A DNA stretch of 64,000 nt from Pseudoxanthomonas suwonensis (GTDB lineage: Bacteria > Pseudomonadota > Gammaproteobacteria > Xanthomonadales > Xanthomonadaceae): positions 1,984,001 to 2,048,000 of the forward strand of contig NZ_CP011144.1 of assembly GCF_000972865.1 (NCBI RefSeq), in the 5' to 3' direction. The translations under genes and the position numbers were made by a program. Position 1 is the first letter of the stretch, and the number at the start of each line of letters is the position of its first letter. This document shows positions 27,965 through 59,826 of this stretch, piece after piece. Below the pieces are notes generated by a model. It was not told the origin of the DNA. It saw nothing but the letters and a program-made list of their open reading frames with translations, and did no database searches.

Positions 27965-27974
27965 GGCACGGTCC

Positions 27975-28460: not shown

Positions 28461-28496
28461 ATCCGTCCGTATCCGTCTTCAGCAAGGAGCAACGAC

Positions 28497-28976
28497 ATGC
28501 CCGCACGCGCATCCCAGTTCGATCCGTTCCGCAAGTTCAAGTTCCGCATCAAGATCGCCAACCAGGTGGTGGCCGGCCTGACCAAGTGCTCGGCGCTCAC
28601 GGTCAGCGTCGAATCCAAGGAATTCCGTTCCGGCGAGATGGATAGCTTCAAGCAGAAGCTGCCCGGCATGGTCTCGTTCGAGCCCATTACCCTGGAGCAG
28701 GGCGTCACCAGCGACAAGACCTTCGAGAAATGGGCCACGGCGATGGCCAACTATCTCGGCAACAAGGGCGCGGACTCGCAGAAGACGCCGGACGATTTCC
28801 GCAAGGAGGTCGACATCGAGGTCTACAACCTCAACAACGAGCGGGTGAAGGCCTACCGGGTCTACCAGTGCTGGGTGTCGAAGTACACCGCGATCCCGGA
28901 CCTGGACGCGAACTCGGCCGACGTGATGATCCAGACGCTGGTGCTGGAGAACGAAGGCATTCAGGTCATGCAGTGA
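28497..28976 (+). CDS. Tail tube protein 2 (gp19-like)
   Basis: A 159-residue paralogue of the preceding protein: SQFDPFRKFKFRIKIANQVV, LTKCSALTVSVESKEFRSGE, LPGMVSFEPITLEQGVTSDKTFEKWA, and YRVYQCWVSKYTAIPDLDANS. It has the usual tube-protein length and a good ribosome binding site (AAGGAG). Having two tube paralogues next to the sheath is common in eCIS clusters, one forming the bulk tube and the other adapting it to the baseplate. Confidence 0.9.
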   Translation: MPARASQFDPFRKFKFRIKIANQVVAGLTKCSALTVSVESKEFRSGEMDSFKQKLPGMVSFEPITLEQGVTSDKTFEKWATAMANYLGNKGADSQKTPDDFRKEVDIEVYNLNNERVKAYRVYQCWVSKYTAIPDLDANSADVMIQTLVLENEGIQVMQ

Positions 28977-28989
28977 CGGGAGACGGCCG

Positions 28990-29751
28990 ATGGGGATGAT
29001 CGGGAATCCGGCGATGGCCGACGCGATGCGCGAAGAGTCGCTCGACGAACGCCGCCTGGTGCTGCCGACCGGCGTTTTCGACGCCGACGGACGCGCGCAT
29101 CGCTGCGTGCGCGTGCGCGAACTGACCGGCGCCGACGAGGAGGCGCTGTTCGAGCGCGGGAAGCCCGGCAATGCGTGGCGCGTCAGCGCCTTCCTGGCGA
29201 GCGCGATCGAATCGGTGGAAGGGCTGGAGGCGGGCGTGGACGCCGCGTTCGCCGCGGACCTGCAGCTGGGCGACCGCGACTACCTGCTGCTGCGCCTGCG
29301 CCAGATGGACCTCGGCGACGCGGTACACCAGGTGATGCGCTGCCCGGCGTGCCTGGAGCGGGTCGATGTGGACCTGTCGATCAGCGAGCTGCCGGTGCGC
29401 CGGCTGGACCGGCCCCAGGCCGTGTACCAGGCGGACATCGCCGGGACTGCGATGCAGCTGCGGCTGCCCACCGGCGCCGACCAGGCCGCGATCGAGACGC
29501 TGGCGATGGCCAACCCCGCCGCGGCCAACACCCGGTTGTTCGCACGCATCGTGCTCGACGTGGACGGGCAGGGCGCGCCGGACGAGGAGACCGTGCGGGC
29601 ATGGCCGTTGGCGATGCGCTCGCAACTGGTGGCCTGGCTCGAGGACCACGCCCCGGGGCCGGAACTGTTCCTGGAACTGGTCTGCCCGCATTGCCGGGCG
29701 GACATGAGCTACGCCTTCGACCTGGACGCTTTTTTTTTGCCGAGCGCGTGA
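28990..29751 (+). CDS. T4 gp26-like baseplate/assembly protein with two CxxC pairs
   Basis: A 253-residue protein resembling the T4_baseplate (gp26-like) proteins of eCIS loci: ERRLVLPTGVFDADGR, VRVRELTGADEEALFERG, and LLLRLRQMDLGDAVHQ. Two CxxC pairs (RCPACLERV around residue 118 and LVCPHCRAD near the end) look like a zinc ribbon. Near its 3' end the gene runs through nine consecutive T residues (29730-29738). A -1 slip there would bypass the TGA and add the downstream DUF6760 frame, giving a 304-residue fusion. Gene order, directly after tube genes, is where phages place frameshifted tail chaperones. Confidence 0.8.
   Translation: MGMIGNPAMADAMREESLDERRLVLPTGVFDADGRAHRCVRVRELTGADEEALFERGKPGNAWRVSAFLASAIESVEGLEAGVDAAFAADLQLGDRDYLLLRLRQMDLGDAVHQVMRCPACLERVDVDLSISELPVRRLDRPQAVYQADIAGTAMQLRLPTGADQAAIETLAMANPAAANTRLFARIVLDVDGQGAPDEETVRAWPLAMRSQLVAWLEDHAPGPELFLELVCPHCRADMSYAFDLDAFFLPSA
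29730..29738 (+). promoter_or_regulatory. T9 run, candidate -1 frameshift or slippage site
   Basis: Zero frame reads GCT TTT TTT TTG CCG AGC GCG TGA. Slipping back one base on the U run gives TTT GCC GAG CGC GTG ACC and enters the DUF6760 frame. The codon context U UUU UUU is a classical slippery heptamer. A run of nine T is striking in DNA of about 70% GC. Confidence 0.55.
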
Positions 29752-29903
29752 CCGATCTCGAGCGCCTGTACGAGGAGACCCATGTGCTTGCGATGCATTA
29801 CCACTGGTCCGAACCGCAGATCCTGGCGCTGCCGCGGAGCAAGCGCCAGCGGTACCTCGCGCTGATCGCCCGGCAGCATCCGGCATCGGGGGCTGAGGCA
29901 TGA
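29748..29903 (+). CDS. DUF6760-like small protein, or C-terminal part of frameshift product
   Basis: A 51-residue frame starting GTG (in a GTGA overlap with the previous stop). LYEETHVLAMHYHWSEPQILALPRSKRQRYLALI fits small DUF6760 proteins found next to gp26-like genes in eCIS clusters, which have a consensus of the type LYEEVAYIAYHFHW. There is no ribosome binding site of its own, so it is made by coupling, by the -1 slip at T9, or both. Its TGA overlaps the ATG of the next gene. Confidence 0.7.
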   Translation: MTDLERLYEETHVLAMHYHWSEPQILALPRSKRQRYLALIARQHPASGAEA

Positions 29904-31015
29904 ACGCCGATCGCGACGGGCAGGCGCCGGCCGAACGCTATGCGCTGGCGCGCCACGGCATGCCGTTGCCGCGCGGACCGGCCAGCGTGCCGCGGGCGCG
30001 CTGGTTGCCGGCGTCGCTGCGGGGCCGCGCGCTGCCGGAACGCATGCGCGAAGCGCCGCAGGCGCCTTTCGTGGACGCGGAGGCCGGGGAAGAGGACGGG
30101 TTCGAAACCGGAATCGGCGGGATCCTGTCGCCGTTGCCGCGGGAATCCACGGGAAGCGCAAGTGCGCCTGCCGCGGCAGCGGATGCGCCCAAGCCGCATG
30201 CGGAGGCGGCCGGGCCCTCGCCGGCGGTGCAGGGGCGCCGCGGCGAGAGCTGGAAGGAAGCGTCGACGCCGGACGCCGGACCGGCGGTGCACCCGGACGC
30301 AGCACCGGGATCGCCGGTGCGAGTGGCCACGGTGCCCGCGGAACCGGCCGCATCGCCGGCCACGATCCAGCCGCCTGCCGGCCGCGCCATGGCCGATCGG
30401 ATCCCGGGCCCGCCGCGTGCGCCATCCGCCCCGGAACCGGAACGCGCCCGCGCACCGGCAGCAGGCGCGCAGGTTGCTCCCCCAGCCGCTCCGCATGCGC
30501 ACCCTGCCGGTTCCCGGCACACGGCCATGCAGGCGCCGGCCTTGGGGCCTGGCGATGCCCGCCACTCCGGGGCGGAGCCGGTGGCATCCCGGTTGCCGCC
30601 CGGGCGCCCGCCCACGGTGGAGGCAACGGTCGCGGCGATGCCGGTGGTGGAGCAGCGATCGCCGGAGGGACCGCCGTTCCCGGTGGCGATCGAGTGCGTC
30701 GCGCGGGTCCAGGCGATGGGGACGCTGGCCTCATCGCCTGTACCTGCGCCAGCCCATGCCGCCAGCGGCACAGGCGAGCGCCCGCCGCCGGTGCGGCCGG
30801 TCGACGCGACCGTGCTGGCGGCGTTGCAGCGGCCCATGCCGCCGCCGTCGCGCACCGTCCGCCTGGACCGCGTGCAGGTGGCGGTGCAGGCGCCGGCATC
30901 GCCCATCCCACGCGCCGCCGGCGCGCCGGCCCCGCCGTCCGCCGCGCCGGCGCGGCCCCCGGCGCGCGCGGCGTCGCGCAACCCGTGGTCCGGCTATTTC
31001 GCCCGCCGGGACTAG
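29900..31015 (+). CDS. Pro/Ala-rich, mostly disordered eCIS protein
   Basis: A 371-residue protein of low complexity, dominated by Pro, Ala, Arg and Gly. No folded domain is recognised except short blocks at the ends (RHGMPLPRGPASVPRARW at the N-terminus, NPWSGYFARRD at the C-terminus). It starts in an ATGA overlap. Its position between assembly proteins and hub proteins, and the lack of any obvious tape measure in this locus, make it one candidate for a length ruler or chaperone. That is inference from position, as nothing in the sequence proves it. Confidence 0.6.
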   Translation: MNADRDGQAPAERYALARHGMPLPRGPASVPRARWLPASLRGRALPERMREAPQAPFVDAEAGEEDGFETGIGGILSPLPRESTGSASAPAAAADAPKPHAEAAGPSPAVQGRRGESWKEASTPDAGPAVHPDAAPGSPVRVATVPAEPAASPATIQPPAGRAMADRIPGPPRAPSAPEPERARAPAAGAQVAPPAAPHAHPAGSRHTAMQAPALGPGDARHSGAEPVASRLPPGRPPTVEATVAAMPVVEQRSPEGPPFPVAIECVARVQAMGTLASSPVPAPAHAASGTGERPPPVRPVDATVLAALQRPMPPPSRTVRLDRVQVAVQAPASPIPRAAGAPAPPSAAPARPPARAASRNPWSGYFARRD

Positions 31016-31026
31016 GAGCCACGGAC

Positions 31027-31554
31027 ATGAGCATCGCCGCCCGCATAGCGCCCACCCTTGCCGCCCGACAGGCACGGGCCGCCGCGCTCGCCGCGGAGCG
31101 GTCCATGCGCGACGCCTTCGTCGTGGCCCAGTTCGCCCAGCTGTGCGACTGCTTCGACGCGCTGCTGCGCGAAGCCCTGGGCATCGACGCGCGCGTGGCG
31201 ATCGCGATGGCGACGCTGACCCATGAGGTGCAAGGCCGCAGTTTCCCGACGCTCACCGTGGACACCTGGAAGGTGCGCGCGGACTTCAACGCGGTGCCGC
31301 AGACCGTCGCCTTCACGCCGCGGCTCGATTTCCGCGAGCCGGACCAGTTCGGCCTAATCGAATGCGCGCTCGACTTCGACTACGCACCGGCGCACAGCCG
31401 TGCCGACCGCACCGCGCGGCTGCTGCTGGCGCGTGGCATCCAGCTGCGCGGCAAGAGCGTCGCCGAGCTGGTGCTGCCGGTGGCCGGCGGCGTGCGCAGC
31501 CTGGTGGCCGGCGACCTGGAAGACGCGTTCGCCGTCTGGTGGCTGCGGCCATGA
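31027..31554 (+). CDS. Hypothetical eCIS protein, 175 aa
   Basis: Not recognised. It has a helical N-terminus (AARQARAAALAAERSMRDAF, then FAQLCDCFDALLREALG) and a beta-rich C-terminal half (FPTLTVDTWKVRADFN, FTPRLDFREPDQFGLIECALDFDY). GGAG precedes the ATG. The stop overlaps the next start (ATGA), so the two are probably made in fixed ratio. An adaptor role between tube and baseplate is possible by location only. Confidence 0.6.
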   Translation: MSIAARIAPTLAARQARAAALAAERSMRDAFVVAQFAQLCDCFDALLREALGIDARVAIAMATLTHEVQGRSFPTLTVDTWKVRADFNAVPQTVAFTPRLDFREPDQFGLIECALDFDYAPAHSRADRTARLLLARGIQLRGKSVAELVLPVAGGVRSLVAGDLEDAFAVWWLRP

Positions 31555-31826
31555 GCGGCCGCCACGCCACCGCGGCCCCACCGGCGCTGCACATCGGGCA
31601 GCTGCGGTTCGTGACCGACCGCGCGCTGGGCGACGGACGCGCGCGCGCGCTGGGCGAACGGTTCGCCGAGGAGCTGGGCACCGCGCTGGCGCAGGCCGGC
31701 GCCAGCGACCGGATGGACATCGGCGAACTGGTGGTGGAAGCCGGTGGCGACCAACTGGACGACCGCGCGCTGCCGCGCCTGGCCGCCGCCGTGGCCCGGC
31801 GGATCCTCGAACGCGTGCCCGACTGA
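31551..31826 (+). CDS. Hypothetical eCIS protein, 91 aa
   Basis: Unrecognised small protein. The middle is predicted helical (RARALGERFAEELGTALAQAG), and the C-terminus is a second helix (LPRLAAAVARRILERV). It is coupled to the upstream gene by ATGA and precedes the CIS-tube adaptor by 14 bp. The pattern of a short strand (LHIGQLRFVTD) followed by two helices suggests a compact alpha/beta protein. Confidence 0.6.
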   Translation: MSGRHATAAPPALHIGQLRFVTDRALGDGRARALGERFAEELGTALAQAGASDRMDIGELVVEAGGDQLDDRALPRLAAAVARRILERVPD

Positions 31827-31840
31827 GGCGGAGCCCCGAC

Positions 31841-32503
31841 ATGTCCGATTTCATCCAGCGGCCGAAACTCCTGCGAGGCGCCTTCGTCGAATACGGGCTG
31901 TCGCTGCCGCCGCTGCTTTTCGCGTTCCAGTTCAATCCGGAGACGCTGACCCGCAACCGTACCGCCAGCTACACCCCGGCCGGCGCCGACGGCAGCGGCA
32001 ACGGCTGCCGCGAGGGCAGCGAGGCGCAGCAGCGCGCCTGCCTGTCGCAGGTCCAGGTCAGCGAGGAGACCCTCGGCCTCACCCTGATGCTCGACGCCAC
32101 CGATGACCTGGACGACAACCAGATGCTGCCGGGCCAGTTCGGCATCGGTCCGCAGCTGTCGGCGCTGGAACTGATGATCTATCCCAAGACCGACCAGCTG
32201 TTCGGCTTCCCGATCGGCAACCTGCTCGGCGGGGACGACCAGTTCGGCGCCGCGAACGCCAAGACCATCCCGATCCTGCTGTTCGTGTGGGGACGCAAGC
32301 GGGTGATGCCGGTGGTGATGACCAGCCTGCAGATCACCGAGCAGGAGTACTTCCCCGACCTGAATCCCAAGCGCGCCCAGATCGCGGTCCAGCTCAAGGT
32401 GCTGGAAGGGTTCAACCCGCCGTACCTCTACTCGCACGGCTGGCGTACCGCGCTGGCGGCGATGAACCTGGCCAATATCGGAGATTTCGCCGATGTTCTT
32501 TGA
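31841..32503 (+). CDS. CIS-tube adaptor protein (Pvc7-like N-terminal part)
   Basis: A 220-residue protein with the family outline of the contractile-injection-system tube/adaptor proteins: LPPLLFAFQFNPETLTRNRTASY, LTLMLDATDD, IGPQLSALELMIYP, ILLFVWGRKRVMPVVMTSLQITEQEYFPDLNPKRAQIAVQLKVLE split over two strands. These proteins connect tube and baseplate. In PVC Pvc7 a LysM domain follows in the same chain. Here LysM is on a separate gene overlapping by 11 bp, so the function appears split. Confidence 0.8.
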   Translation: MSDFIQRPKLLRGAFVEYGLSLPPLLFAFQFNPETLTRNRTASYTPAGADGSGNGCREGSEAQQRACLSQVQVSEETLGLTLMLDATDDLDDNQMLPGQFGIGPQLSALELMIYPKTDQLFGFPIGNLLGGDDQFGAANAKTIPILLFVWGRKRVMPVVMTSLQITEQEYFPDLNPKRAQIAVQLKVLEGFNPPYLYSHGWRTALAAMNLANIGDFADVL

Positions 32504-32777
32504 TGGATCCCGCTACATCCGGGTGCCCGACGCCGCTTTCGCGGACGCCGAAGGCAGGACCGTGCAGCTCAAGTGCACGCGCGAACCGGTCGCCACGGAA
32601 CTGGCGCTGGTCTACCAGGTGCGCGAGGGCGACAGGCTCGACGCGCTGGCCAACCGCTTCTTCCACGACCCGCGCAAGTGGTGGCTGATCGCCGACGCCA
32701 ACCCCGCCGTCCTCGCCCCCGAGCAGCTGCTCGTACCGGGACGGCAGCTGCGCATCCCCCGCGACCGGGGCGCATAG
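32493..32777 (+). CDS. LysM-domain baseplate protein (gpX/gp53-like)
   Basis: A 94-residue protein. The C-terminal half is a LysM-like unit: VYQVREGDRLDALANRFFHDPRKWWLIADANP, with the family's YxVxxGDxLxxIA-type spacing and a W-rich second helix, then LLVPGRQLRIP. In phage and eCIS baseplates such domains sit in the inner ring around the hub. It overlaps the CIS-tube gene by 11 bp, so translation is coupled. Confidence 0.8.
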   Translation: MFFDGSRYIRVPDAAFADAEGRTVQLKCTREPVATELALVYQVREGDRLDALANRFFHDPRKWWLIADANPAVLAPEQLLVPGRQLRIPRDRGA

Positions 32778-32786
32778 GACGCCGCC

Positions 32787-33998
32787 ATGCCCGCGATCCC
32801 GACCCCGTCCGACCGCTCCTTCAGCTGCGCCGTCCTGGTCAACGGCCAGGCGGCGGGATCGCTGCTGCATTGCATCCGCTCGGTGACCGTGGACGAGGAC
32901 CTGGATGCCGGCTCCTCCTGTGCGGTCGAGCTGGAGGCCTGCCGCAACGACGACGGAAGCTGGCCCTACCTGGCCGACCCCAATCTCCAGGTGTGGAACC
33001 GCGTGACCGTGTACGCGGCGTTCCCCGGCCGCACCGAACTGGTGTTCGACGGCTACATCTCGCACATCAACGCGCGCACCAACGACGAGGCGGCGAACAT
33101 GACCGTGCAGATACTGGGCGTGGACGCCTCCTACCACATGAACCAGGAGGAGAAGACCCGGATCTGGCGGGGAAAGACCTACGAGAAGATCGCGAGCGAG
33201 ATCATCGAGCACTACGGCTTCAAGGCGGTCGTGGCCGATCCGCCCGGCACCGGCGAGGCGCCGCCGCAGGTCGCCCAGCGTTCCACCGACCACCGTTTCC
33301 TGCGCGAACTGGCGCGGCGGCGCGGCTACGAGTTCTACGTGCTGGGTGCGAACGCCTACTTCCGCCCGGCCGTGCTCAGCGGGCAGCCGCAGAAGCTGAT
33401 CGCGGTGAACTTCGGCGAGCAGACCAACTGCCACGGCCTGCAGTTCGATGCCGACGGCACCGCGCCCACCGAGGCCCAGGTCAGCTACTTCGACGCGATG
33501 GAAGGCCAGGCCAGGACCGACCTGGCCCACAGTTCGGGCCTGCCGTCGCTGGGAGCCGACCCGTTGTCCGCGCTGCGCGGCGCGATCCGCATGCCGCAGG
33601 CACGCCGCATCGCCCGGGGCCTGGGTTTCCACGCCGGCACCCAGGCGGCGGAATACGCGGCCGGCATGCTGCGCCGCCACGGCTGGTGGATCACCGCCCG
33701 CGGCACCCTCAACGGCCTGCGTTACGGCGCCGTCCTGCGCATCCGCAAGCTGGTCACGGTCAAGGGCGCCGGCGCCCGCTACAACGGCAACTACTACGTG
33801 CGCAAGGTCCAGCACCGCCTGGCGCCGCGCAGCTACGAGATGCAGTTCGAACTGTCGCGCAACGCACTGGGCCAGCTCGGCAGCGAGGATTTCCAGGGCG
33901 AGTCGCCGGACATGTCCATGCCGTTGGCCGCCGGTGCCGGCGCCGACAGCGACCCGATCGAAGTGGTCGCCGCCGGCCCGCGCGTGCTGCCGGCATAG
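32787..33998 (+). CDS. Baseplate hub protein, gpD/VgrG-N-like (Pvc8 part)
   Basis: A 403-residue hub protein of the phage late-control gpD family: VFDGYISHINARTNDEAANMTVQILGVDASYHMNQEEKTR, then KIASEIIEHYGF, STDHRFLRELARRRGYEFYV. These are the domains that form the trimeric hub on which the spike sits. In VgrG and Pvc8 the spike is fused. Here it is the next gene, 9 bp away. No hydrolase motif is visible. Confidence 0.85.
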   Translation: MPAIPTPSDRSFSCAVLVNGQAAGSLLHCIRSVTVDEDLDAGSSCAVELEACRNDDGSWPYLADPNLQVWNRVTVYAAFPGRTELVFDGYISHINARTNDEAANMTVQILGVDASYHMNQEEKTRIWRGKTYEKIASEIIEHYGFKAVVADPPGTGEAPPQVAQRSTDHRFLRELARRRGYEFYVLGANAYFRPAVLSGQPQKLIAVNFGEQTNCHGLQFDADGTAPTEAQVSYFDAMEGQARTDLAHSSGLPSLGADPLSALRGAIRMPQARRIARGLGFHAGTQAAEYAAGMLRRHGWWITARGTLNGLRYGAVLRIRKLVTVKGAGARYNGNYYVRKVQHRLAPRSYEMQFELSRNALGQLGSEDFQGESPDMSMPLAAGAGADSDPIEVVAAGPRVLPA

Positions 33999-34007
33999 GA
34001 GAAGCGC

Positions 34008-34910
34008 ATGAACATGGAGCGGGCGGACAGCAACCGGACCGAGAGCGATCGCATCGAGCGCCTCGAAGGCCAGTACTTCGGCAAGTACCGCGGCGTGGTC
34101 ATCGACAACAAGGACCCGCAGCAGCTGGGCCGGGTGCGGGTGTGGATACCCAGCCTGTTCCCGGTGGAAGGCGACCGCAAGCCCGGTACCGACAGCCCCG
34201 CCGTCAGCGACTGGGCCTGGCCGTGCCTGCCCTTCGGCGGCGCGGCCGGGCAGGGACTGTTCTTCGTGCCGGAGACCGGCAGCAAGGTCTGGGTCGAATT
34301 CGAGGAAGGAAGCATCGACAGCCCGATCTGGGTCGGCGTGTTCTGGTCGGCGCCCGGCGGCAACACGGAGATCCCGCCGGAGGCGGCGGACATGGAGCAG
34401 GACGAGCCCCGTCGGCGCGTGCTCAGGACCTCCAGCGGCCATGTCCTGGAGTTCTGCGACATCGACGGCAAGGAGAGCGTCACCCTGCGCCACAAGGACG
34501 GCGCGATGCTGGTCTTCGACGAGAAGGGCAGCGTCACCGTCGGCAACAAGAACGGGACCTTCCTCTACCTCAACGCCGACCAGGGCGAGCTCTCGTTCGC
34601 CGACGAGAACGGCAACAACGTGCGGCTCGGCGATTCCAGCATCACCTTGACCAACAAGGGCGGCACGGTGGTGGACATGGTCGATGCGTCCGTGCAGGTG
34701 ATCGCCAAGAACGTGATGGTGCGCAGCGACACCGTGACCCTGGGCGAGGGCGCGATGGAGCCGGCGATCCTGGGCCGCGCCTTCGCCGCGGCGTTCGACG
34801 CGCACGTCCATCCCACCGCGTTCGGCCCATCGGGCCCGCCGATACCGGTGCCGATGCCGTTGTCCTCGCCCATGCACCCGGCGATGTCCAAGTCGGTGAA
34901 GCTCAAATAG
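34008..34910 (+). CDS. Spike protein, gpV/gp5-OB-like with beta-helical C-terminus
   Basis: A 300-residue spike. The OB-fold is visible as FGKYRGVVIDNKDPQQLGRVRVWIP, then WAWPCLPFGG and FFVPETGSKVWVEFEEGSIDSPIWVG, the standard VgrG/gp5 signature. After residue 140 short strands repeat (SGHVLEFCDIDGKESVTLRHKDG, GSVTVGNKNGTFLYLNAD, SSITLTNKGGTVVDM), the triangular beta-helix of the needle. The C-terminus (AFDAHVHPTAFGPSG) is typical for spikes that receive a tip. AGGAG precedes the ATG. Confidence 0.9.
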   Translation: MNMERADSNRTESDRIERLEGQYFGKYRGVVIDNKDPQQLGRVRVWIPSLFPVEGDRKPGTDSPAVSDWAWPCLPFGGAAGQGLFFVPETGSKVWVEFEEGSIDSPIWVGVFWSAPGGNTEIPPEAADMEQDEPRRRVLRTSSGHVLEFCDIDGKESVTLRHKDGAMLVFDEKGSVTVGNKNGTFLYLNADQGELSFADENGNNVRLGDSSITLTNKGGTVVDMVDASVQVIAKNVMVRSDTVTLGEGAMEPAILGRAFAAAFDAHVHPTAFGPSGPPIPVPMPLSSPMHPAMSKSVKLK

Positions 34911-49808: not shown

Positions 49809-52800
49809 ATGAGCAGCAAGCCCGCTCAAGCCAAGGCCACGGGCCAGCGGGCATCGTCGGCGGCCACGCCCACCCGCGTCCCGGCAGCGGCGCAGGCACC
49901 GTCTCCGCAAGGCGCCGACCTGCTGCCGTCGCAACTGGGCAATCGCGGCATGCAGGCGCTACTGGGCCGCATGCAGGCGGTCGGCCGGCCGGCGTCGTCC
50001 ACACCGCACGCCGCACCGGCCAGCGCGTACGCCGGCCAGCTGGTCCGCGCCGCGCTCGCGCGGCCGGGAACGGCCTTGCCCGAGGCCAGCGCGACACGCC
50101 TGAGCGCGCTCCTGCATCAGGTGCATGCCGGGGCAAGCGAGCCGACGCGGCACAGGCCACCACAAGCATCGCCGGCCGTACTGGTGGCCGACTCTGATAG
50201 CGCTCACGAAGTCGCCGCACGTCGGGCGGCCGAAGTAGCCGAAGCGGTTCCTGCCCCGGCACCCGTGTCACGGCCACGTCGCAGCGCCGTGGTGCATGCC
50301 CGCATCCACGCCGATGCCCCCGCCGCCGCCGCGGCCCAGGCGTTGCGCGCGCGCGCATTCGCGGCCGGCGAGCACCTGTTCTTCGACACCGGGCGCTACG
50401 CTCCGCACACGCCGCACGGCGAGCGCCTGCTGCTGCACGAACTGGTGCACGTGGAGCAGCTGGCCTGGAGCCCGCACGGCCTTCTGGTGCTGCGCGACGG
50501 TGAGGAGGACGCAGCAGCGCCGACGGCTCCGTCCCCGACGGTGATGGCGGTTACCCTCGACGGCGTCGACTTCTACTTCGGCAACCGGCGCTACAGCGCC
50601 GGTTCGACCCGGGCGCAGATCTGGCCACTGGTCCTGCAACGGCTGCTCGGAACCCAGCACGATCCTTCGCGCGATGCGAGCGTGCTGGAGAGCTGGCTGC
50701 AGCATGGGGCTTCCCAGAATCTGCGCCTGATAAACGATCTACGCGTAGACCGCGCAGCCACTGCCGGCGAGGTCATGATCGGCCTGAGCCTGTCGGCGCA
50801 GGCCGTGCTCATGCTGATCGAGGTGCTGGAGGCGCCGCCGTACCGATGGCATGCCGACCTCAGCGAGGAGCAGCGCGAACTCCTGCGCGTCGGCTATGCA
50901 CTGATGAGCGCGTGGCCGCTGCTGCGGCCGCGTTTGCCCAGGTGGTACGACGAGAATATGTTCCGCCGGCAGATGGCCCAGCGTGGATCGCTTGCGCGCG
51001 ACTGGCAGCGCATGGCGCCGACCACGCCGGGCCACGAGGAGTACAGCGCCGAGAACCGCGAAGCGATGATCGAAAGCATCTTCGCGGCGCTGACCGGTCC
51101 GGTCCGCATCGTCGAGGCGATACGCCTCGACTACCGGCTCGGCGACGCGGCGGGCACCACCGGGCGCGGGTTACGGGAACGCTACCGTGCCCAGGGTGCA
51201 GTGGCGTACCGCGGGCTGTGGCGGATCGACGCACCGTTGACCGCGCGGCTGACCGAAGCACCGCCCGAGGACCGGGTTCGAAACGAGATCGCGCTGTGGC
51301 TGCTGGGCTACGTGCACACCCAGCCGGACCTTTCCGCGGCGGCGACGCTCGAAGGCACCGCGGGCCATGAAGCCAGGCTCGAGTTGCTGGGACGGCTCTT
51401 CCGCTACCTGGACCGGACCATAGGGCGCATCACACGCGGCGACGAGAGCCTGTTCAACGTACCGGCGCGTGCCACCGACCCGCCCTGGGACGCGCGGATG
51501 ACGAGCGCGCCGCCGCTGACCCCACCGCTGTATGACGCCGCGCTGCGGACCGACCACGCCTTCACCATGCAACTGGAGTTCGGCGATGTGTTCGACGCCT
51601 TTGCCGACTACGGCTACCTGTGGAAGTTCGTGCGCATCCCCGACCCCGAGTCCGGCGAGGAAGTCCCCGACCCGCTCACCGCGGCCGGCACGCGTCCGGA
51701 CTTCGGCACGGTCTTCGACACCCGGGTCGCGCGGGCACGCCGCTACAACGCCGCCGACCTCGAGCGCGTCCGCTCGCGCTTCGGCACCACGCCCTGGGGA
51801 CGGGCGATCAGCAACGCCTCGTTCGCGGCCGACCTGGTGCGGCTCAACAATGTGCTGCGCACGCTCGGCACGGTGATCCGCACCGTGCTCGAACGCCTCA
51901 CCCAGCCGCGCTACACCACCCGCATCGTGTTCCCAAGGCCGGGCATGTACGTGGTGGTTTGCCGTGCTGTTCCGGTACTGGCTGGCGACGAGGAAGTGAC
52001 GCATGCCCCAAGCGTGGCGATGCTCCCGGTGGTGGCACGCGACCCCGACGAGATGGCGATCACGCGCGTGCGCGAGTCCAGTCGCAACGAGTTCCAGGTA
52101 CGGCTGCGGCTGGCGGAGATCCGCGCGCTGCTGGATTCGCCGCTGCCGCCGGAGAACGCCGCGGAACTGCAGGCGGAGATGGAGGAACTGCAGGCGATGC
52201 TGGCGGCGCCGGGAGAGGCGCTGGTCGCCCGGCGCGAACTGCTGCGGAGCCAGGTCGCGCTGCTGCGGCGGAGGCTGGAGCTGCGCCGCCGGATCGCCGC
52301 GGCCGAGACGGCCGAACCTGCCGACCCCGGAGCGCTCGCCGCGCTGCGACGCGAACTGTTCGATGCCGGCGGAGAGACGTCTTCGGCCTGGGCCGAGCGC
52401 GAGGACGTGCGCGGCCTGGAGAGGCAACTGGAAACGCTGGGGGAAATGATCGACATGCGCGAGGAGCGGATCCGCGGCGAGCGCGGGGTCCGCTTCACCC
52501 CGCACGCCACCTTCGTGTCCGACCTGGGCCATTCCCTGGCGCTGAGCCTGGAGATGTACGACCGCGGCGTGGTCGGCGGCGCCTACCAGGTGTACATCTC
52601 CGATCTGACCACGCCGGACAGCGGCGCCACCTTGGGCTCTTCGCCCTTGAATGGCTTGCCCAACCCGCGCGTGGCCGCGGTACTGGCCGGCCTGCGCGAT
52701 CTGCTTGAAGACCACAGCGACTACGGTCGAGGCCGGGTCGCGGTACAGCTCGAAGGCGCGCTGCACACCTTGCGGGTCGAGGCCGGCACCGGCCGCATGC

Positions 52801-55076
52801 TGATGGAGGCCGTCGAGAACGGGGTCACGGTGCTGTCGCTGGCGGCGATCGTCGCGGCGCCCTTCACCGCCGGCGAAAGCCTGATGCTGCTGCTGCCGCT
52901 GGGCGCGGTCGGCGCGGTTCCGTCGGCCTACCGGCTCTACCAGCGCTACGACGAACACCGCCTGCGCTTCGACCTGGCCACGGCGATGGACGTGGTCAAC
53001 CTCGTCGGCGGGGCGATCGGCCTGGCCCACGCCGCCACGCCACTGCGCATGGTGCGCATGGGCCGGGTGATGATGGTGGCCGGCCTGGGCGCCGACGGCG
53101 CCGGCATGCTGATGATGGGCGCCGGCTTGGTGCAGCAGATCGAAGCGTTGCGCCACCTGCCCGAGCACGAGCGTGCGGCGCAACTGCTCATGATCCTGGG
53201 CGGGGCGATGATGCAGATCGGCATCCAGGCCGGTGGCATGGTGATGCATTCGCGCTACCAGGGCGCACGCGAGTCCGCCGCACCCAGGCGCGAAGGTGCG
53301 GATCCGCGCCTGGAGGCCGGCGACGCGCCGGGCTTCCGGCCGCCGCGCGAGGGCTCCTCCCCGCCGCGTGCCGATGCGACCCCGCCCGGACCGGCCGACC
53401 GCAGCACCTCCGCCGCCGCGCCGCCGCCGCGCGCTCCACCCGCGCCACCGCGCGCATCGACGCGGCGCACCCGCCGCCACGACCGGCTGATGGCGCGCTT
53501 CGAGGGCGGCATCGACTACTCGCGCCCGCCACCGGCCGCCGACGTGGCCAATCCGCCGCGGGCCGGCGAGTGCCAGCGCCGGTTGCGCACCGACGAGGCC
53601 GCCTTCAACGCCTACAACGACGCGGTGGCGGCGTCCGCCGGCCGCGAGGTGGGGCTGTTCCACAATCCGCGCACCGGCGAGTACCGGGTGATGATCGGCG
53701 ACGAGACCGGGGTCAGCGCGCCCGGCCGTTCGGGCTGGGACGCGGTGGTGCACTACCATCCGGACGGCAGCACGCGGTCGACCTTCCGCCTGCCCTCGCC
53801 CCACGACTTCCAGGGCCTGATGTTCCGCTACCTGGAAGGCGGCGGCCCGGTGCGCGAGTTCGTCGAGTTCGACATCCCGGGCGTCGGCCGCGGCCGCACC
53901 GAGTACGGCATCGATCCGGGCCACGCCGAGCCCTTCTATGTCCGCATCCACCGGCCCGGCGAGCCGCCGCAGACCCTGCGCTTCGCGCACGACGGCGCGT
54001 TCCGCACCTACTGGGGCGAACGCACCGTGTTCGTCGAACCCGGGTCGCCGCTGTACCAGTCGATGATCCGCGACATCCAGGGCTACGTCCGCTCGCTGGA
54101 CCCGGCCCAGGCCGGCGCCGCGCCCGCCCGGCGCACCGAAGCAGGAGGCGACGCCGGCGCTGCACGGCCGACCCCCGGCGCCGCCGACGCGGCCGGACCC
54201 GGGCCCGCCGCCGACTCGCCGCGCCGCGCCGGCGAGGGCGGAGAAGGCCGCCCGGCGCCCGGCGACCGCACCGCGGCAGCCAGCGAGCCAACCAGCAGCG
54301 GCCGGTTCACCGACGACGCCGGCGGGCTCACCGATGCCGGCATCGCCTTCATCCGGCGACGTTTCCGCACGGTGAGCGAATTCGGCGGCGGCCGCAGCCG
54401 CCGGGTGGCGCTGGACAACCTGAGCGACGCCCAGATCCGCAACCGTTTCTCCACCGAATCGGCCTGGCTCGAGGCGGTGGTGATCGGCGAGGTGCGGCAA
54501 TCGTGGATCGGCCGCACCAGCGCCACCGACTTCCTGCTCGACAATCCGCAGCAGACGCTGCGCAACGTGGCCACGCGCCTGGCCGCGGCGATCGAAGCGG
54601 GCGGCACCGGGCACACGCTCAACGAAGGCGTGCTGGGCCGCAATGCGCTCGATTTCGTGCGCGAGCGCGTGGCCGCCAACGATCCGGTGCTGCGCCCGGC
54701 GTGGGATGCGCTGGAAAGCAGCACCAATCCGGCGGTGCAGCGCGCGTGGAACCGCTTCCTGTTCGGCACCGAGCGCATGCCGGGCGCGACTCCCGCGGCC
54801 CGCCAACGGCACCGCCAGGCCCTGATGGACGCGCCCGGTGGCAGCGGCGAAGGCTTCGGCGCCGGCCTGGTCGGCAACAAGCGGCCGGACGTCATCGAGG
54901 TGCTGCTGAGCCGGGACGCCATCCACGTGCTGGATCCATCGCAACGCTGGGCCGACCCGGTCCACAACTTCAAGACCGCGTTCTACGAGGCAGTGCTGCG
55001 TCAGCTGATCGACGTGGGCAATGTTACTTCGGCCGACACCGGCGGCGGCGCGCGCGTGCGTCCCACGGGACTGTGA
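49809..55076 (+). CDS. DUF4157 cargo protein 1 with JAMM-like domain
   Basis: A 1755-residue multidomain protein. The N-terminus contains GNRGMQALLG (44-53). A DUF4157 region follows with the metallopeptidase-like HELVH (210-214, FFDTGRYAPHTPHGERLLLHEL). A coiled-coil stretch lies near 770-880, and Gly/Ala-rich hydrophobic helices near 1005-1145 could insert in a membrane. After a Pro-rich linker comes a JAMM/MPN-like motif: H1315-x-H1317-P, then S1330-x-x-D1333, with a candidate Glu at 1280 (REVGLFHN). After a second Pro/Ala/Gly linker, the last 260 residues form an unknown domain (SGRFTDDAGGLTDAGI to NKRPDVIEVLLSRDAIHVLDP). DUF4157 is a known marker of eCIS cargo. Toxicity is inferred. Confidence 0.75.
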   Translation: MSSKPAQAKATGQRASSAATPTRVPAAAQAPSPQGADLLPSQLGNRGMQALLGRMQAVGRPASSTPHAAPASAYAGQLVRAALARPGTALPEASATRLSALLHQVHAGASEPTRHRPPQASPAVLVADSDSAHEVAARRAAEVAEAVPAPAPVSRPRRSAVVHARIHADAPAAAAAQALRARAFAAGEHLFFDTGRYAPHTPHGERLLLHELVHVEQLAWSPHGLLVLRDGEEDAAAPTAPSPTVMAVTLDGVDFYFGNRRYSAGSTRAQIWPLVLQRLLGTQHDPSRDASVLESWLQHGASQNLRLINDLRVDRAATAGEVMIGLSLSAQAVLMLIEVLEAPPYRWHADLSEEQRELLRVGYALMSAWPLLRPRLPRWYDENMFRRQMAQRGSLARDWQRMAPTTPGHEEYSAENREAMIESIFAALTGPVRIVEAIRLDYRLGDAAGTTGRGLRERYRAQGAVAYRGLWRIDAPLTARLTEAPPEDRVRNEIALWLLGYVHTQPDLSAAATLEGTAGHEARLELLGRLFRYLDRTIGRITRGDESLFNVPARATDPPWDARMTSAPPLTPPLYDAALRTDHAFTMQLEFGDVFDAFADYGYLWKFVRIPDPESGEEVPDPLTAAGTRPDFGTVFDTRVARARRYNAADLERVRSRFGTTPWGRAISNASFAADLVRLNNVLRTLGTVIRTVLERLTQPRYTTRIVFPRPGMYVVVCRAVPVLAGDEEVTHAPSVAMLPVVARDPDEMAITRVRESSRNEFQVRLRLAEIRALLDSPLPPENAAELQAEMEELQAMLAAPGEALVARRELLRSQVALLRRRLELRRRIAAAETAEPADPGALAALRRELFDAGGETSSAWAEREDVRGLERQLETLGEMIDMREERIRGERGVRFTPHATFVSDLGHSLALSLEMYDRGVVGGAYQVYISDLTTPDSGATLGSSPLNGLPNPRVAAVLAGLRDLLEDHSDYGRGRVAVQLEGALHTLRVEAGTGRMLMEAVENGVTVLSLAAIVAAPFTAGESLMLLLPLGAVGAVPSAYRLYQRYDEHRLRFDLATAMDVVNLVGGAIGLAHAATPLRMVRMGRVMMVAGLGADGAGMLMMGAGLVQQIEALRHLPEHERAAQLLMILGGAMMQIGIQAGGMVMHSRYQGARESAAPRREGADPRLEAGDAPGFRPPREGSSPPRADATPPGPADRSTSAAAPPPRAPPAPPRASTRRTRRHDRLMARFEGGIDYSRPPPAADVANPPRAGECQRRLRTDEAAFNAYNDAVAASAGREVGLFHNPRTGEYRVMIGDETGVSAPGRSGWDAVVHYHPDGSTRSTFRLPSPHDFQGLMFRYLEGGGPVREFVEFDIPGVGRGRTEYGIDPGHAEPFYVRIHRPGEPPQTLRFAHDGAFRTYWGERTVFVEPGSPLYQSMIRDIQGYVRSLDPAQAGAAPARRTEAGGDAGAARPTPGAADAAGPGPAADSPRRAGEGGEGRPAPGDRTAAASEPTSSGRFTDDAGGLTDAGIAFIRRRFRTVSEFGGGRSRRVALDNLSDAQIRNRFSTESAWLEAVVIGEVRQSWIGRTSATDFLLDNPQQTLRNVATRLAAAIEAGGTGHTLNEGVLGRNALDFVRERVAANDPVLRPAWDALESSTNPAVQRAWNRFLFGTERMPGATPAARQRHRQALMDAPGGSGEGFGAGLVGNKRPDVIEVLLSRDAIHVLDPSQRWADPVHNFKTAFYEAVLRQLIDVGNVTSADTGGGARVRPTGL

Positions 55077-55101
55077 CCGGACGGGCCGAGGGGCAGCGCG
55101 C

Positions 55102-58100
55102 ATGAAGGCCTCCATTCGCCACAGCGCCCGGGACCGCACGCGTGCCGGTGGCGGCAAGGAAGCCGGCCGCGCCAGGAACGATGCGCCGGCGCGAGGCGAG
55201 GCGGACGCAGGCCACGGGGCCGGGCAGGTGGTGGCGCGCATGGGCAATCGCGGCCTCGCCGCCCTGCTGGGTGCGAACCCGGCGCAGGGGCCGGCGGCCG
55301 AGCGCGCCGCCGACCTGCTGGCGCAACGGGCACTGCAGATCCCGCAAGTGCCGCCGGGGTCCGATGGCCCGCCCGTGCACGGTCACCGGCAAGCCGCCGC
55401 CGACGCGCCGCCGCCACCGGACGCGCCCGCGCACGTGCGCGCCGCCGTCTCCACCCGCGGCCAATCCCTGGATCCGGAGTTGGCAGAACGGCTGGGCCGG
55501 GCCTTCGACTTCGATTTCGGCAACGTGTCCATCCATCGCGACGCGCCGGCCGCACGATCGACCGGTGCGCTGGGAGCGCACGCCTATGCCGTCGGCCGCC
55601 ACGTGGTGTTCGCCCCGGGGCAGTACGCGCCCCGATCGCCCGGCGGACAGGCGCTGATCGCGCACGAACTGGCGCACGTGGTCCAGCAGCGCCATGCCGG
55701 ACCGCGCGTGCAGCTGAAGAAGGCCCCGGCGAAGAGCGTCCCGGCGCTCACGGTGAACGGCGCCACGTTCGAGGAGGCGGCGGCGAACTTCGCGCAACTC
55801 CTGCAACAGCACCAGGAGTCGGACAAAGCCCGCATCGTCATCGTCAACGGTCCCAACGTCAGGGTCTTCGACGAGACCGGAAAACCGGTGGTCAAGACCT
55901 TCTTCCACCTGCAAAGCCCGGTCACCGTGCCGGTGGGCGTCTACCGCCAGACCAAGGGCGCGCGGCTGCGGCCCATCATCATCAACGAGGACGGCAGCTA
56001 CGGCATCGGCCACCTGAACATGGAGGGCACGCTCAACTTCGCCAAGGACATCGACGACCAGGAAGGATTCAACAAGGCGCTCGAAGGCGCCAAGTACATC
56101 TACTACGTATCCCCCAACAGCACCGCCGTGGCGGCGACCGCCGATGCCCCGGCGCCGGTCCCGATCGAGAACCTGCCGGAATTCATGGAGTTCGAGGCCA
56201 AGAGCAAGGCCAACCTGCCGGCCTGGCCGTCGGCGACCCTGCCGCTGACCTCGCAGCTGGCCACCGTCAACAGCACCGGATCCTTCATCTGCAAGGTGGA
56301 CAAGAACCAGGGCGTGAACACCCTGGACCGGGTCACCAACCTGATGCAGGCGACGCGCTTCAGGTGGGAGGTGCTCAAGCTGGACGAGACGCTGCGGGTC
56401 AAGGACAAGAAGCGCACGACCGGCTGGGATGCGGCGGCCGAGGGCTTCGCGCGCCGCAAGCGCCAGCTCAAGGACGATCGCCAGGCCATGCTGGGCGACC
56501 GGCGCCGGCAGAGCATCCCGGAAAGCGTATTCCGTTCCGCGGTCGAATCGCAGACCCGGAACGTGCGCACCGCGCTGGCCATGACCGGGCAGGCGGTGAT
56601 GACGGTCATCAATGCGATCACCGGGGGCCCCAACCAGCTGACCACCGAGGACGTGATGGACGTCCCGTTCAAGGAGCAGGGGGACTACTTCGTCCGCTGC
56701 CTGGCGACCCAGGTGGTTCCCAAGGACGCCAAGTACCGCCGCGCCACTTCCGTGTCCGGGGTCATGGTGTCGGTGTACGACATCGAGGACGTGGCCCGCG
56801 AATCGCTGTCGGGAGGCGATGAACTGAAGGCCGACGCGGAGAAGAACCGCGCCCAGGTCGAAGCCGCGCTGGCGGATCTGGACCAGGAAATCGCCAGCGG
56901 CGAAGGCGACGTGGTCATAAAACGGTCCGAGCGCGCCTACAAGGCGCTGATGCTGGGCTACTTCGAGGACCTCGCCGCCGCCGGGAGCGATCCACTGAAC
57001 GCGAAGGTGGCCGAGCAGAACCTGCTCAGGTCGCAGATCGCCTATTTCGAATCCGACGAGTATCCACCGGGCGAAAAATACCTCGCGTTCAAGGAGGCGA
57101 AGCTCGAGAAGCTGCGGGCGCGGCTCAAGATCCTGGACGCGGTGATCGCGCGCATGCGCGGCGCACTGTCGAGCCGCGATTCGCAGATCGATCCGGTGGG
57201 ATACATGCGCGCGATGCTGGTCGACGAGGTGACCAGCCAGAGGACCGAGCTGTCGTTCCACGTCGGCGAACGCAGGTACATCGCCGCCGACAAGCTCGAG
57301 GTGGTGATCGCCGACGTCACCGGTGCCACGGGCCGCACCTTCACCGGCAGCGCCAGCGGCTTCCTGGGCGCCGGGCGGCAGGACGCGTGGCTGGATGCGA
57401 TGACCGACCTGCGCCGCAACCTGAACCGCGGGCGCGGCTGGATCAGCTACGAGGTGCCCAAGCCCTACGAGAAGTGGAAGTCCGAACTGCCCAATCCGAT
57501 GAAGCTGGAGATGTCGATCAAGGCGCAGCTGAAGGAAACCGTCGACGATGCCGCCCACGCGCTCACCATCGCGGCGATCCTGGCGGCGCCCCTGACCGGC
57601 GGTTCATCGCTGGGAATCCTGGCCGTGCTGGCCCCGATCCAGGCCGGATCCAGCCTCTACAACATCGTCAACCGCGCGGTGTACGACGACCTCCAGGTCG
57701 ACGAAGAAGCGGTGTTCGACCTGATCAACATCGCCACCCTCGGACTGGGCAAGCTGTCGACCGTGGGCAAGGCCGGCTCGCGCGGCCTGGAGATAGTGGC
57801 CAGCAGCAGCAGGATCGCGATCAAGCTGATCAACGGCGGCCAGTTCATCGTGATCAGCTACCAGCTGTTCAACACGCTCATGGAATCGCAGACCGATCCG
57901 GACGCGGACCCGCGCGAGCTGCGCCGCAAGAAGCTGACGATGCTGCTGAACTGGTTCGAGCAGGCCGCGATTCCCGTCTCGGAGAAGCTGTTCAGCGAAG
58001 CCCATGGGCCCGGCAAGCGCCCCGACAAATCGAGCAAGGGCAAGGACGCGAGCCTGAGCTTCGAGGAACCGCTGGACGTGCAGGGCAAACCGCGCAAGCG

Positions 58101-59826
58101 CACGGTGAAGGAGGGCGAATTCGTCGAACCCGCCGGCAAGGCGCCGGCGAAGGCCGCCGCACCGGAACCCGTCGCCAAGGCGCCGGGGAAAGCCGCCACG
58201 CCGGAAGCCACCGCCGCCACGCCGGCCGGGGACGCGGCCGCGGCTCCCGCCCCCGCCCCCGCCGCAGTGGGCTACAAGCCCGGCAAGGCACAGTTGCGCG
58301 GCGTGCCCGGATCGCTGCACGGCAAGGTGGCGGTGGTCGAAGGCATGGGTACGGACGCGCGCGTGGTCTACAAGCGCGGCGGCAACGGCCTCATCACCGA
58401 CGTGCAGATACAGATCGGGAAAGGGGCCACCGCCGCCGACGTCAAGACGCATGCCGCCGTGGCCGAGCTGATGCTCAAGTACTCGGGTACCGGCGGGCGC
58501 ATCCGCCAGCTGCGCGATCTCTTCATCAACCTGTTCAAGGGACCCGCGGCCAAGCGGCCGCAGATCGGCAGCCGCGCATGGGAGGCGAGGTTCGAGCTGG
58601 TGAAGCTCGATCGCATGATGCGCGAGCGCCATGCGGAACTGGCCGCCATCGCCGACCAGCCCGCGGACCGGCGCGACATGGCCCGCCAGAACGAACTGAT
58701 GCGGGACCTGGATTCGCTCGAACTGCAGTACCAGGAACACGCCGCGGTCTTCAATGCCATCGAGATGGGCAACGCCCTGGGCCGCGGCTACGTGGCAGCC
58801 GAAGGGCTGGCCGCCGGCGAGCGCATGCGGATCGAGCGCAAGCTGCCCCCGGCGCCCGACGGCTATCGATGGCGTTTCCGCAAGGGCCAGCTGGAGGTGG
58901 TGGCCAAGCCGGGCAGGGAGAAGATCTACTACGACGAGAAGCAGCGCAAATTCGTCAAGGACGACCGTCCCTACGAACCCGAGCGCTTCGAACCGGGGAC
59001 CGACGCCCTCCAGGCCTTCCGCGAACTGGGCGGCTACCAGGCCGACACGCCCTTCGGCGCGTTCGTCGAGATGCTGCTGGACCAGGGACTGGTCAAGTCG
59101 CGCAAGGAAGTGATCGATGCGATAGCCGAACCGGGCAGCCGTACCTACGACACCGTCCGCGGCAAGGTGAAGGACGTCTTCAAGGCCCGGCTGGTCGAAC
59201 AGATCACCAGCCCCGCCTACCTGAAGAAGACCGCCCGCTACCGCGAAGTGCTCAAGGCCACGGGCGATCCGGCGCAGGCCAGGCGCGCGGCCGGAATGGA
59301 CGAGATGCTGCGGTTGAGCGAACGGCTCGGACCGGAGGAGCGCGGCAGCCTGGGCGAGCGGGTGTACGCCGAACTGTTCGGCTCGGGCAAGAGCACCGTG
59401 CACGTGGACATCAGTCCGGCGGAACTGGCGGCCGCCAAGGGCGTCCCCGAGAGCGCCGTCGCGCAGGGGCGCACGATCGACCGCATGGACGGCACCCGCG
59501 CGCGCGAGATCAAGAACGTCACCACCCGGCTCGGCCCGCGCGAACGCGGCCAGATCGAGGACATGCTGGCGATGGTCGGCCAGAAGGTGCAGCCGTCGGG
59601 TGGCGCGCCGCGCAGGATCGAGCAGGTATCGGTGGCCTTCCTCGATCCGAAGGGCGGGATCGCCAACGCATCGCTCGCCCACCAGATCCTGAGCGCCAAC
59701 CCGGGCGCCCCGCTCACCTTCGAGTTCCACGCCACCGACGGCAAGGTCGTGAAGGTCACGGCCAGCAACAAGGACGTACTGCTGAAGCCGGACTTCCGCA
59801 CTAAGCTTGGCCTGCCGGCCCTGTGA
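55102..59826 (+). CDS. DUF4157 cargo protein 2 with C-terminal PD-(D/E)xK-like domain
   Basis: A 1574-residue protein with a layout like its upstream neighbour. GNRGLAALLG (48-57) is followed by a full DUF4157 domain (LGRAFDFDFGNVSIHRD, then FAPGQYAPRSPGGQALIAHELAHVVQQ, HELAH at 188-192). The middle contains helical repeats and hydrophobic helices (around 820-880, AALTIAAILAAPLTGGSSLG-like). A Lys/Ala/Pro linker lies near 1010-1060. The last 100 residues contain IDRMDGTRAREIKNVTTRL: Asp1460 or 1463, Glu1469-x-Lys1471, then an alpha helix with Gln, as in PD-(D/E)xK nuclease toxins. Predicted DNA- or RNA-cutting payload. GAGGGG precedes the ATG. Confidence 0.75.
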   Translation: MKASIRHSARDRTRAGGGKEAGRARNDAPARGEADAGHGAGQVVARMGNRGLAALLGANPAQGPAAERAADLLAQRALQIPQVPPGSDGPPVHGHRQAAADAPPPPDAPAHVRAAVSTRGQSLDPELAERLGRAFDFDFGNVSIHRDAPAARSTGALGAHAYAVGRHVVFAPGQYAPRSPGGQALIAHELAHVVQQRHAGPRVQLKKAPAKSVPALTVNGATFEEAAANFAQLLQQHQESDKARIVIVNGPNVRVFDETGKPVVKTFFHLQSPVTVPVGVYRQTKGARLRPIIINEDGSYGIGHLNMEGTLNFAKDIDDQEGFNKALEGAKYIYYVSPNSTAVAATADAPAPVPIENLPEFMEFEAKSKANLPAWPSATLPLTSQLATVNSTGSFICKVDKNQGVNTLDRVTNLMQATRFRWEVLKLDETLRVKDKKRTTGWDAAAEGFARRKRQLKDDRQAMLGDRRRQSIPESVFRSAVESQTRNVRTALAMTGQAVMTVINAITGGPNQLTTEDVMDVPFKEQGDYFVRCLATQVVPKDAKYRRATSVSGVMVSVYDIEDVARESLSGGDELKADAEKNRAQVEAALADLDQEIASGEGDVVIKRSERAYKALMLGYFEDLAAAGSDPLNAKVAEQNLLRSQIAYFESDEYPPGEKYLAFKEAKLEKLRARLKILDAVIARMRGALSSRDSQIDPVGYMRAMLVDEVTSQRTELSFHVGERRYIAADKLEVVIADVTGATGRTFTGSASGFLGAGRQDAWLDAMTDLRRNLNRGRGWISYEVPKPYEKWKSELPNPMKLEMSIKAQLKETVDDAAHALTIAAILAAPLTGGSSLGILAVLAPIQAGSSLYNIVNRAVYDDLQVDEEAVFDLINIATLGLGKLSTVGKAGSRGLEIVASSSRIAIKLINGGQFIVISYQLFNTLMESQTDPDADPRELRRKKLTMLLNWFEQAAIPVSEKLFSEAHGPGKRPDKSSKGKDASLSFEEPLDVQGKPRKRTVKEGEFVEPAGKAPAKAAAPEPVAKAPGKAATPEATAATPAGDAAAAPAPAPAAVGYKPGKAQLRGVPGSLHGKVAVVEGMGTDARVVYKRGGNGLITDVQIQIGKGATAADVKTHAAVAELMLKYSGTGGRIRQLRDLFINLFKGPAAKRPQIGSRAWEARFELVKLDRMMRERHAELAAIADQPADRRDMARQNELMRDLDSLELQYQEHAAVFNAIEMGNALGRGYVAAEGLAAGERMRIERKLPPAPDGYRWRFRKGQLEVVAKPGREKIYYDEKQRKFVKDDRPYEPERFEPGTDALQAFRELGGYQADTPFGAFVEMLLDQGLVKSRKEVIDAIAEPGSRTYDTVRGKVKDVFKARLVEQITSPAYLKKTARYREVLKATGDPAQARRAAGMDEMLRLSERLGPEERGSLGERVYAELFGSGKSTVHVDISPAELAAAKGVPESAVAQGRTIDRMDGTRAREIKNVTTRLGPRERGQIEDMLAMVGQKVQPSGGAPRRIEQVSVAFLDPKGGIANASLAHQILSANPGAPLTFEFHATDGKVVKVTASNKDVLLKPDFRTKLGLPAL

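Follow-up and report, generated by a model that had tools for sequence, protein, structure and literature searches.

A JAMM-like domain as a candidate toxin-release module in a contractile injection system cargo protein of Pseudoxanthomonas suwonensis

A stretch of 64,000 nucleotides of Pseudoxanthomonas suwonensis (NZ_CP011144.1, positions 1,984,001 to 2,048,000 of the forward strand; hereafter the window) encodes a 1,755-aa cargo protein of an extracellular contractile injection system (eCIS), in which residues 1225–1432 resemble JAMM/MPN metallopeptidases. On a modest balance of the evidence, this domain is probably a pre-toxin processing module of its own cargo protein, a JAMM-like metallopeptidase that would cut behind itself to free a C-terminal nuclease. 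The proposal rests on conserved metal-site residues, the register of the fold, the position of the domain ahead of variable tails and paired motifs in the flanking linkers, and it is because of these paired motifs that self-processing is the best fit. The question bears on how eCIS toxins leave cargo chains of 1,000–2,000 residues.

The Metal Site and Fold of the JAMM-Like Domain

The original prediction, made from the letters of the window, had placed a JAB/MPN-type zinc site (E...HxHP...SxxD) in a DUF4157 cargo protein, and its numbering is exact: H1315-Y-H1317-P is followed, after a spacing of eleven residues, by S1330-P-H-D1333, which starts at position 53,796, and E1280 lies upstream, directly after R1279. 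The pattern H.HP.{4,20}S..D occurs once in the cargo protein, and 73 of 20,000 shuffled versions also contain it; the pattern alone is therefore modest evidence, and conservation is the real test. A search with residues 1225–1440, covering proteins of 0.55–1.75 times the query length, retrieved 49 long proteins, one of them (P0002) the window's own, and 46 of these carry a precomputed DUF4157 domain. E1280, H1315, H1317, R1327, P1329 and D1333 are identical in 49/49 and P1318 in 48/49, so that the ordered Glu, HxH and Asp expected of JAMM/MPN+ enzymes are present throughout. This part of the predicted zinc site stands, but not its serine: the position of S1330 is occupied by Ala in 39/49 and by Ser in ten, including the window's protein, and "SxxD" is thus better written "[A/S]xxD". 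R1327, three residues ahead of this position (53787–53798), is invariant although the Ser is mostly Ala, a combination that may mark a non-standard JAMM chemistry; that the arginine compensates for the absent Ser is speculation.

The AlphaFold2 model of the domain (ma425d43a3abc) is a confident alpha/beta structure with a predicted local distance difference test score (pLDDT) of 86.6, in which E, H, H and D fall in the secondary-structure register of known JAMM/MPN+ enzymes. The VIA-align list obtained with it consists mostly of MPN/JAMM proteins, at middling Z-scores (best 6.8). Because the E, HxH and D are identical in all the long proteins, the register is right and the VIA-align rows are mostly MPN/JAMM, a JAMM/MPN-like metal-site domain is supported, with reservations, by sequence and model. 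The strongest family signature outside the metal site is EFVEFDIPGVGRGRTE in the alignment of relatives; it reads VREFVEFDIPGVGRGRTEYG in the window's protein, where it is proposed as a substrate-recognition element.

The Paired Linker Motif

The linkers that flank the domain, upstream and downstream alike, contain a motif of the approximate form [DEG][RK][TS][M/x]AG, which the rest of these proteins almost entirely lacks. It was recognized by eye, as GDRTMAG-like strings directly behind the domain, even ahead of tails unrelated to one another, and was then counted in 52 domain-bearing proteins, namely the 49 together with P0057, P0069 and P0072. The strict pattern [RK][TS][MATV]AG is found in 26/52 proteins within the 80 residues ahead of the domain and in 22/52 within 90 residues starting 25 ahead of the domain's profile end, with one match inside the domain and none in 56,125 residues of the heads or in 11,649 residues of the distal tails. 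Seventeen relatives that share the head and have no JAMM-like domain hold a single match in 22,399 residues. A wider pattern, [RKQ][TS][MATVSI][AVST][GKSA], is present in 43/52 downstream linkers (mean 4.7 and maximum 11 in 500 shuffles) and in 35/52 upstream linkers; its density is 10.9 and 9.4 per 1,000 residues in the two linkers versus 0.3–1.4 elsewhere.

Expectation-maximization (EM), run unseeded on a non-redundant set of 28 trimmed downstream linkers, gave [EGD][RK][TS][MA]AG as the best motif, and the matrix learned downstream passes its 1% shuffle threshold in 16/28 upstream linkers versus 1/28 N-terminal control stretches. A first run had converged on the conserved edges of the adjoining domains rather than on a linker motif, after which the linkers were trimmed and EM repeated. 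The trimmed upstream set by itself led EM to the end of the head (HARYQG); the upstream result therefore depends on the matrix learned downstream. Upstream and downstream copies within a protein are more alike than permuted pairs, with 68/114 positions identical versus a mean of 53.9 after permutation (p 0.0004, uncorrected for ancestry), a likeness confounded by common ancestry. Gly stands at motif position 6 in 19/23 scored downstream and 16/19 scored upstream instances, as judged by a hand-made score that itself rewards Gly. In a Chloroflexi locus (L010), left out of the counts, SQAMMSG follows the domain and is compatible with the motif.

Tails Behind the Domain

In the 52 long proteins the JAMM-like domain is never the C-terminal module, and it is constant while the tails behind it differ. 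The tail belongs to one PD-(D/E)xK-like family in 40/49 and is unrelated in the other nine; it extends at least 143 aa past the domain in all 49, so that the C-terminal position of a Tox-JAB toxin is not seen, and the arrangement is instead that of pre-toxin peptidases, in which the toxin domains directly behind a constant domain are exchanged. In the window's protein, conservation and model (me2224e32bc1e, pLDDT 88.7) suggest a PD-(D/E)xK-like nuclease in residues 1500–1755, the proposed released toxin, and the VIA-align rows for this tail include cap-snatching endonucleases, Hjc and Cas4-like proteins. The tail profile A4 matches in 2/398 genomes, both of which also carry the JAMM-like domain. 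In P0050 (2,831 aa), a PT-HINT domain stands behind the JAMM-like domain and the linker motif is absent, as if HINT had taken over release.

A Self-Processing Module and Its Alternatives

After loading or injection, the domain built into the cargo would cut the linker behind itself, at or next to the [DEG][RK][TS][M/x]AG motif (here DRTAAA, 1486–1491), freeing the C-terminal nuclease, and the matching upstream motif suggests a second cut that would free the domain from the DUF4157 part. Metal binding, peptidase activity, cleavage in cis, the scissile bond and the timing of cleavage are what we infer here. A Gly close to the scissile bond would be in keeping with JAMM enzymes, whose cleavage of ubiquitin-like tails falls behind the terminal Gly. 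A more specific form of the proposal, held tentatively and with less than even confidence, is that of a ubiquitin-independent, sequence-specific JAMM endopeptidase that recognizes the R/K-T/S-x-A-G copy on either side of itself and cleaves the chain at each, so that the domain and whichever toxin follows it are set free from the cargo.

Several results weigh against self-processing. As regards the fold, VIA-align Z-scores stay below 7 throughout, with unrelated rows reaching 5.4, and Foldseek searches of the Protein Data Bank (PDB) and BFVD with the domain model gave nothing at E <= 0.001, the top PDB row, YkuJ, aligning to model residues 105–183 only. Profile comparison by hhalign with alignments of Prok-JAB, DUF4329 and RadC gave no significant match. 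P was 0.08 for Prok-JAB (PF14464) and 0.53 for RadC (PF04002), with HxHP and PSxxD nonetheless in register, and 0.62 for DUF4329 with 3 usable sequences only; the sets derived from 16/20, 13/15 and 3/9 fetched loci for Prok-JAB, RadC and DUF4329, respectively, and at least one RadC row (L041) is apparently in the wrong frame. Pfam and NCBIfam name no JAB domain here; Prok-JAB and RadC, like Tox-JAB-2/DUF4329 (PF14220), have no Pfam match in 26 alignment members at E <= 10, and a PDB sequence search with the domain or with the alignment A1 returned nothing relevant. The JAB/MPN assignment that the original prediction had put to structure and profile comparison is supported, with reservations, by the register in the model and the VIA-align list and not by the Foldseek, profile and family searches, and the predominance of Ala at the Ser position counts against it as well.

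As regards the motif, the window's own copies are degenerate, since DRSTSA scores 2.9 bits against a threshold of 9.35 and DRTAAA has no Gly, and P0050 and P0069 possess the domain and no recognizable motif. Relatives such as the Arenimonas (L008) or Dyella (L007) protein have copies nearer to the consensus. The motif was noticed by eye before the linkers were trimmed for EM, and the domain of P0027 was misbounded (88–730) in the count. EM on the N-terminal controls also exceeded its own shuffles (91.4 versus a maximum of 75.2), with a different and weaker motif, and a laxer hand-made score, which about 10% of shuffled linkers and 5/28 N-terminal controls also attained, was set aside as too lax for main evidence. 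The 17 domain-less relatives contain 11 matches to the wider pattern, in 9/17 proteins (0.49 per 1,000), and they also have no long linkers, so that this control is not fully matched. Moreover, the HExxH of DUF4157, itself a predicted peptidase, is intact in 49/52 JAMM-bearing proteins, including that of the window. A second search, aimed at short proteins, added six more relatives, mostly partial; P0052 reads HYQP, the second His being replaced by Gln, and P0051 reads HFHT. The sequences of P0051, P0054 and P0056 stop within the domain or shortly past it; P0054 and P0056 have lost part of the domain and all three lie on contigs of 1.2–2.6 kb, so they may be fragments.

The function that the original prediction had put first, a deubiquitinase-like effector, is not favoured. 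In the broader form of this reading, the cargo would deliver, together with the tail nuclease, a second enzyme active in the target cell: a JAMM-type isopeptidase or deubiquitinase-like enzyme, or else a nuclease of the kind suggested for Tox-JAB and RadC. In its favour, eCIS are able to inject into eukaryotic cells, the metal-site residues are identical in 49/49, and the three short, possibly partial proteins have no tail behind the domain; JAB domains also occur as toxin domains in polymorphic toxins (PMC3482391). Nevertheless, a domain that is constant and internal while its tails vary, that mostly has Ala for the classical JAMM Ser and whose paired linker motifs would be left unexplained makes this effector role unlikely.

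The alternative function of the original prediction, processing of the large protein itself, is the one retained as more probable, as a proposed cleavage to which the window's own motif copies lend weak support. The cut could also be made at the same motifs by the N-terminal DUF4157 zincin (PVC metallopeptidase), with the JAMM-like domain only positioning or regulating it. Autoproteolysis of such cargos has been ascribed, as a proposal, to DUF4157 (PMC3482391), and its intact HExxH agrees with this. However, the motif tracks the JAMM-like domain: the 17 relatives without it, 7 of which have HExxH in the first 450 residues, hold one strict match, and the window's second DUF4157 cargo shows no such motif pair. 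For another DUF4157 cargo, Cgo1, growth inhibition was independent of the metalloprotease motifs (PMC8894135), a result that concerns toxicity more than processing. A DUF4157 cutter is accordingly rather improbable.

Slightly more doubtful still is that the motifs serve as landmarks for docking, folding or cassette exchange and that the domain is an MPN-like module without catalytic activity. MPN domains are often non-catalytic scaffolds, and the likeness of the two copies within a protein is also what duplication would give; however, MPN-minus domains are not known to keep the E, H, H and D that are kept here in 49/49. The codons differ between the copies in the window, L006, L007 and L008, which speaks against landmarks and also disfavours a domain inserted together with DNA direct repeats. 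Finally, that there is no JAMM domain and the residues resemble its motif by convergence, as the non-significant Foldseek and profile matches and the 73 shuffles would allow, is very improbable in view of the 49/49 identity, the secondary-structure register and the MPN-dominated VIA-align list.

Genomic Context and Distribution

The assignment of the protein as a DUF4157 eCIS cargo, part of the original prediction, is confirmed by its eCIS_core domain (PF13699, E 1e-14), the sole Pfam match in its 1,755 aa, and by its neighbourhood, the gene lying downstream of an eCIS locus with sheath, tube, hub and spike genes (Table 1) as well as sigma-54 activator and AAA ATPase genes. Pfam, NCBIfam, PADLOC and PHROGs, run on the protein and its pieces, gave eCIS_core as the only named family, with two weak unnamed PHROGs, and Rhs repeats were not found by Pfam. 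The eCIS_core matches at E <= 0.001 in the whole genome are this protein and a second cargo, whose open reading frame (ORF; 55021–59826, +) has HExxH and overlaps the end of the first, so that there is no space for a gene between them. A tRNA gene at 60889–60962 (-), just past both cargo genes, may mark where a mobile eCIS island ends. The sigma-54 activator gene (20223–21500, +) precedes the eCIS structural genes, and a homologue (~47%) adjoins a related cargo gene in Dyella (L007:11485–12891).

Table 1. Features of the cargo protein and its surroundings, in window positions.
Feature	Position	Strand	Basis
eCIS structural genes: sheath, two tubes, T4-type baseplate, CIS_tube, hub, spike	25289..34910	+	Pfam
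eCIS cargo gene P0001, 1,755 aa	49809..55076	+	ORF with Met at 49809; eCIS_core PF13699
eCIS_core/DUF4157 domain, residues 163–217	50295..50459	+	Pfam PF13699; HExxH (HELVH) from residue 210
Upstream linker motif copy DRSTSA, residues 1197–1202	53397..53414	+	Downstream-learned matrix, weak
JAMM-like domain, residues 1225–1432	53481..54104	+	49 proteins, alignments, model, VIA-align
E1280, candidate general base	53646..53648	+	Alignment of long proteins
H1315-Y-H1317-P, candidate metal ligands	53751..53762	+	Sequence and alignment
R1327-L-P-S1330-P-H-D1333	53787..53807	+	Alignment
Family signature, residues 1348–1367, two predicted strands	53850..53909	+	Conservation; strands in model
Downstream linker motif copy DRTAAA, residues 1486–1491; proposed processing site	54264..54281	+	Linker comparison
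C-terminal tail, residues 1500–1755, PD-(D/E)xK-like nuclease (D1694, D1709, K1722)	54306..55073	+	Conservation; model; VIA-align
Second eCIS_core cargo protein, without JAMM-like domain (control)	55021..59826	+	Pfam; JAMM profile scan

The distribution of the domain is sporadic: it occurs in 1/60 genomes of the family, the window's own, and a draw of 398 genomes from the phylum gave three, including the window's own again and a distant match. Carriers include Litchfieldella, Dyella and Arenimonas, together with metagenome-assembled genomes of Rubrobacter and Chloroflexi. Scans of viral contigs with A1 and A2 found no relatives, and the locus L002 contained no convincing one. A large Ala-rich protein, from a genome in the same class, has in its middle a distant JAMM-like segment that contains HSHP (L005:1501–2046).

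Comparison with Known Systems

If the proposal is true, it would describe a general release module for eCIS toxins drawn from a class, JAMM, that is known mainly for ubiquitin-like proteins. Such a module, with predicted sites, makes toxin release directly testable and adds a possible ubiquitin-free JAMM activity; it would also be a marker for unannotated toxin domains, because whatever follows the second motif is probably payload. No description of a JAMM or JAB domain in an eCIS cargo was found in the literature searched, outside which lie most subscription papers and all bioRxiv preprints; no paper in it combines "contractile injection", "toxin" and "JAB domain", and the main texts of PMC11297309 and PMC8213781 do not mention JAB. 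Geller et al. (2021; PMC8213781) report that the linkers between DUF4157 and toxin occasionally exceed 1,000 aa and that the role of DUF4157 is still to be studied, release and maturation being among the possibilities. RadC-type JABs occur in polyvalent proteins (PMC5512222).

In comparison to the JAMM/MPN+ metallopeptidases, such as Rpn11, CSN5, AMSH and archaeal JAMM1, the domain shares the order and register of E, HxHP and D, and such proteins make up most of its VIA-align rows; it differs in the mostly Ala position of the Ser, the invariant Arg three residues earlier, the HP-to-S spacing of 11 and a family-specific C-terminal part with the signature given above, and its sequence-profile match is not significant. 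The JAB toxin domains (PMC3482391) likewise occur in secreted toxin proteins and have E/HxH/S/D residues; in contrast, there the domain is the toxin, a proposed nuclease, whereas here it lies ahead of a toxin-like tail, is flanked by motifs and does not match DUF4329. For the tail, the model and the D/D/K residues recall PD-(D/E)xK nucleases, including cap-snatching endonucleases and Hjc.

The auto-processing pre-toxin peptidases (HINT, caspase-like, ZU5 and PVC metallopeptidase/DUF4157) are also constant peptidase-like domains ahead of exchangeable toxins in polymorphic or PVC/eCIS cargos (PMC3482391); the present domain has another fold, is a second peptidase-like domain besides DUF4157 and has paired candidate sites. 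The Rhs effector TseI of the type VI secretion system is processed at both ends, with release of a C-terminal nuclease (PMC7170923), but the present cargo has no Pfam Rhs repeats, and a metal-site enzyme is proposed instead of Rhs-type self-cleavage. JAB as a toxin domain and DUF4157 as a proposed releasing peptidase were thus already known, while the pair of linker motifs flanking the domain is new here.
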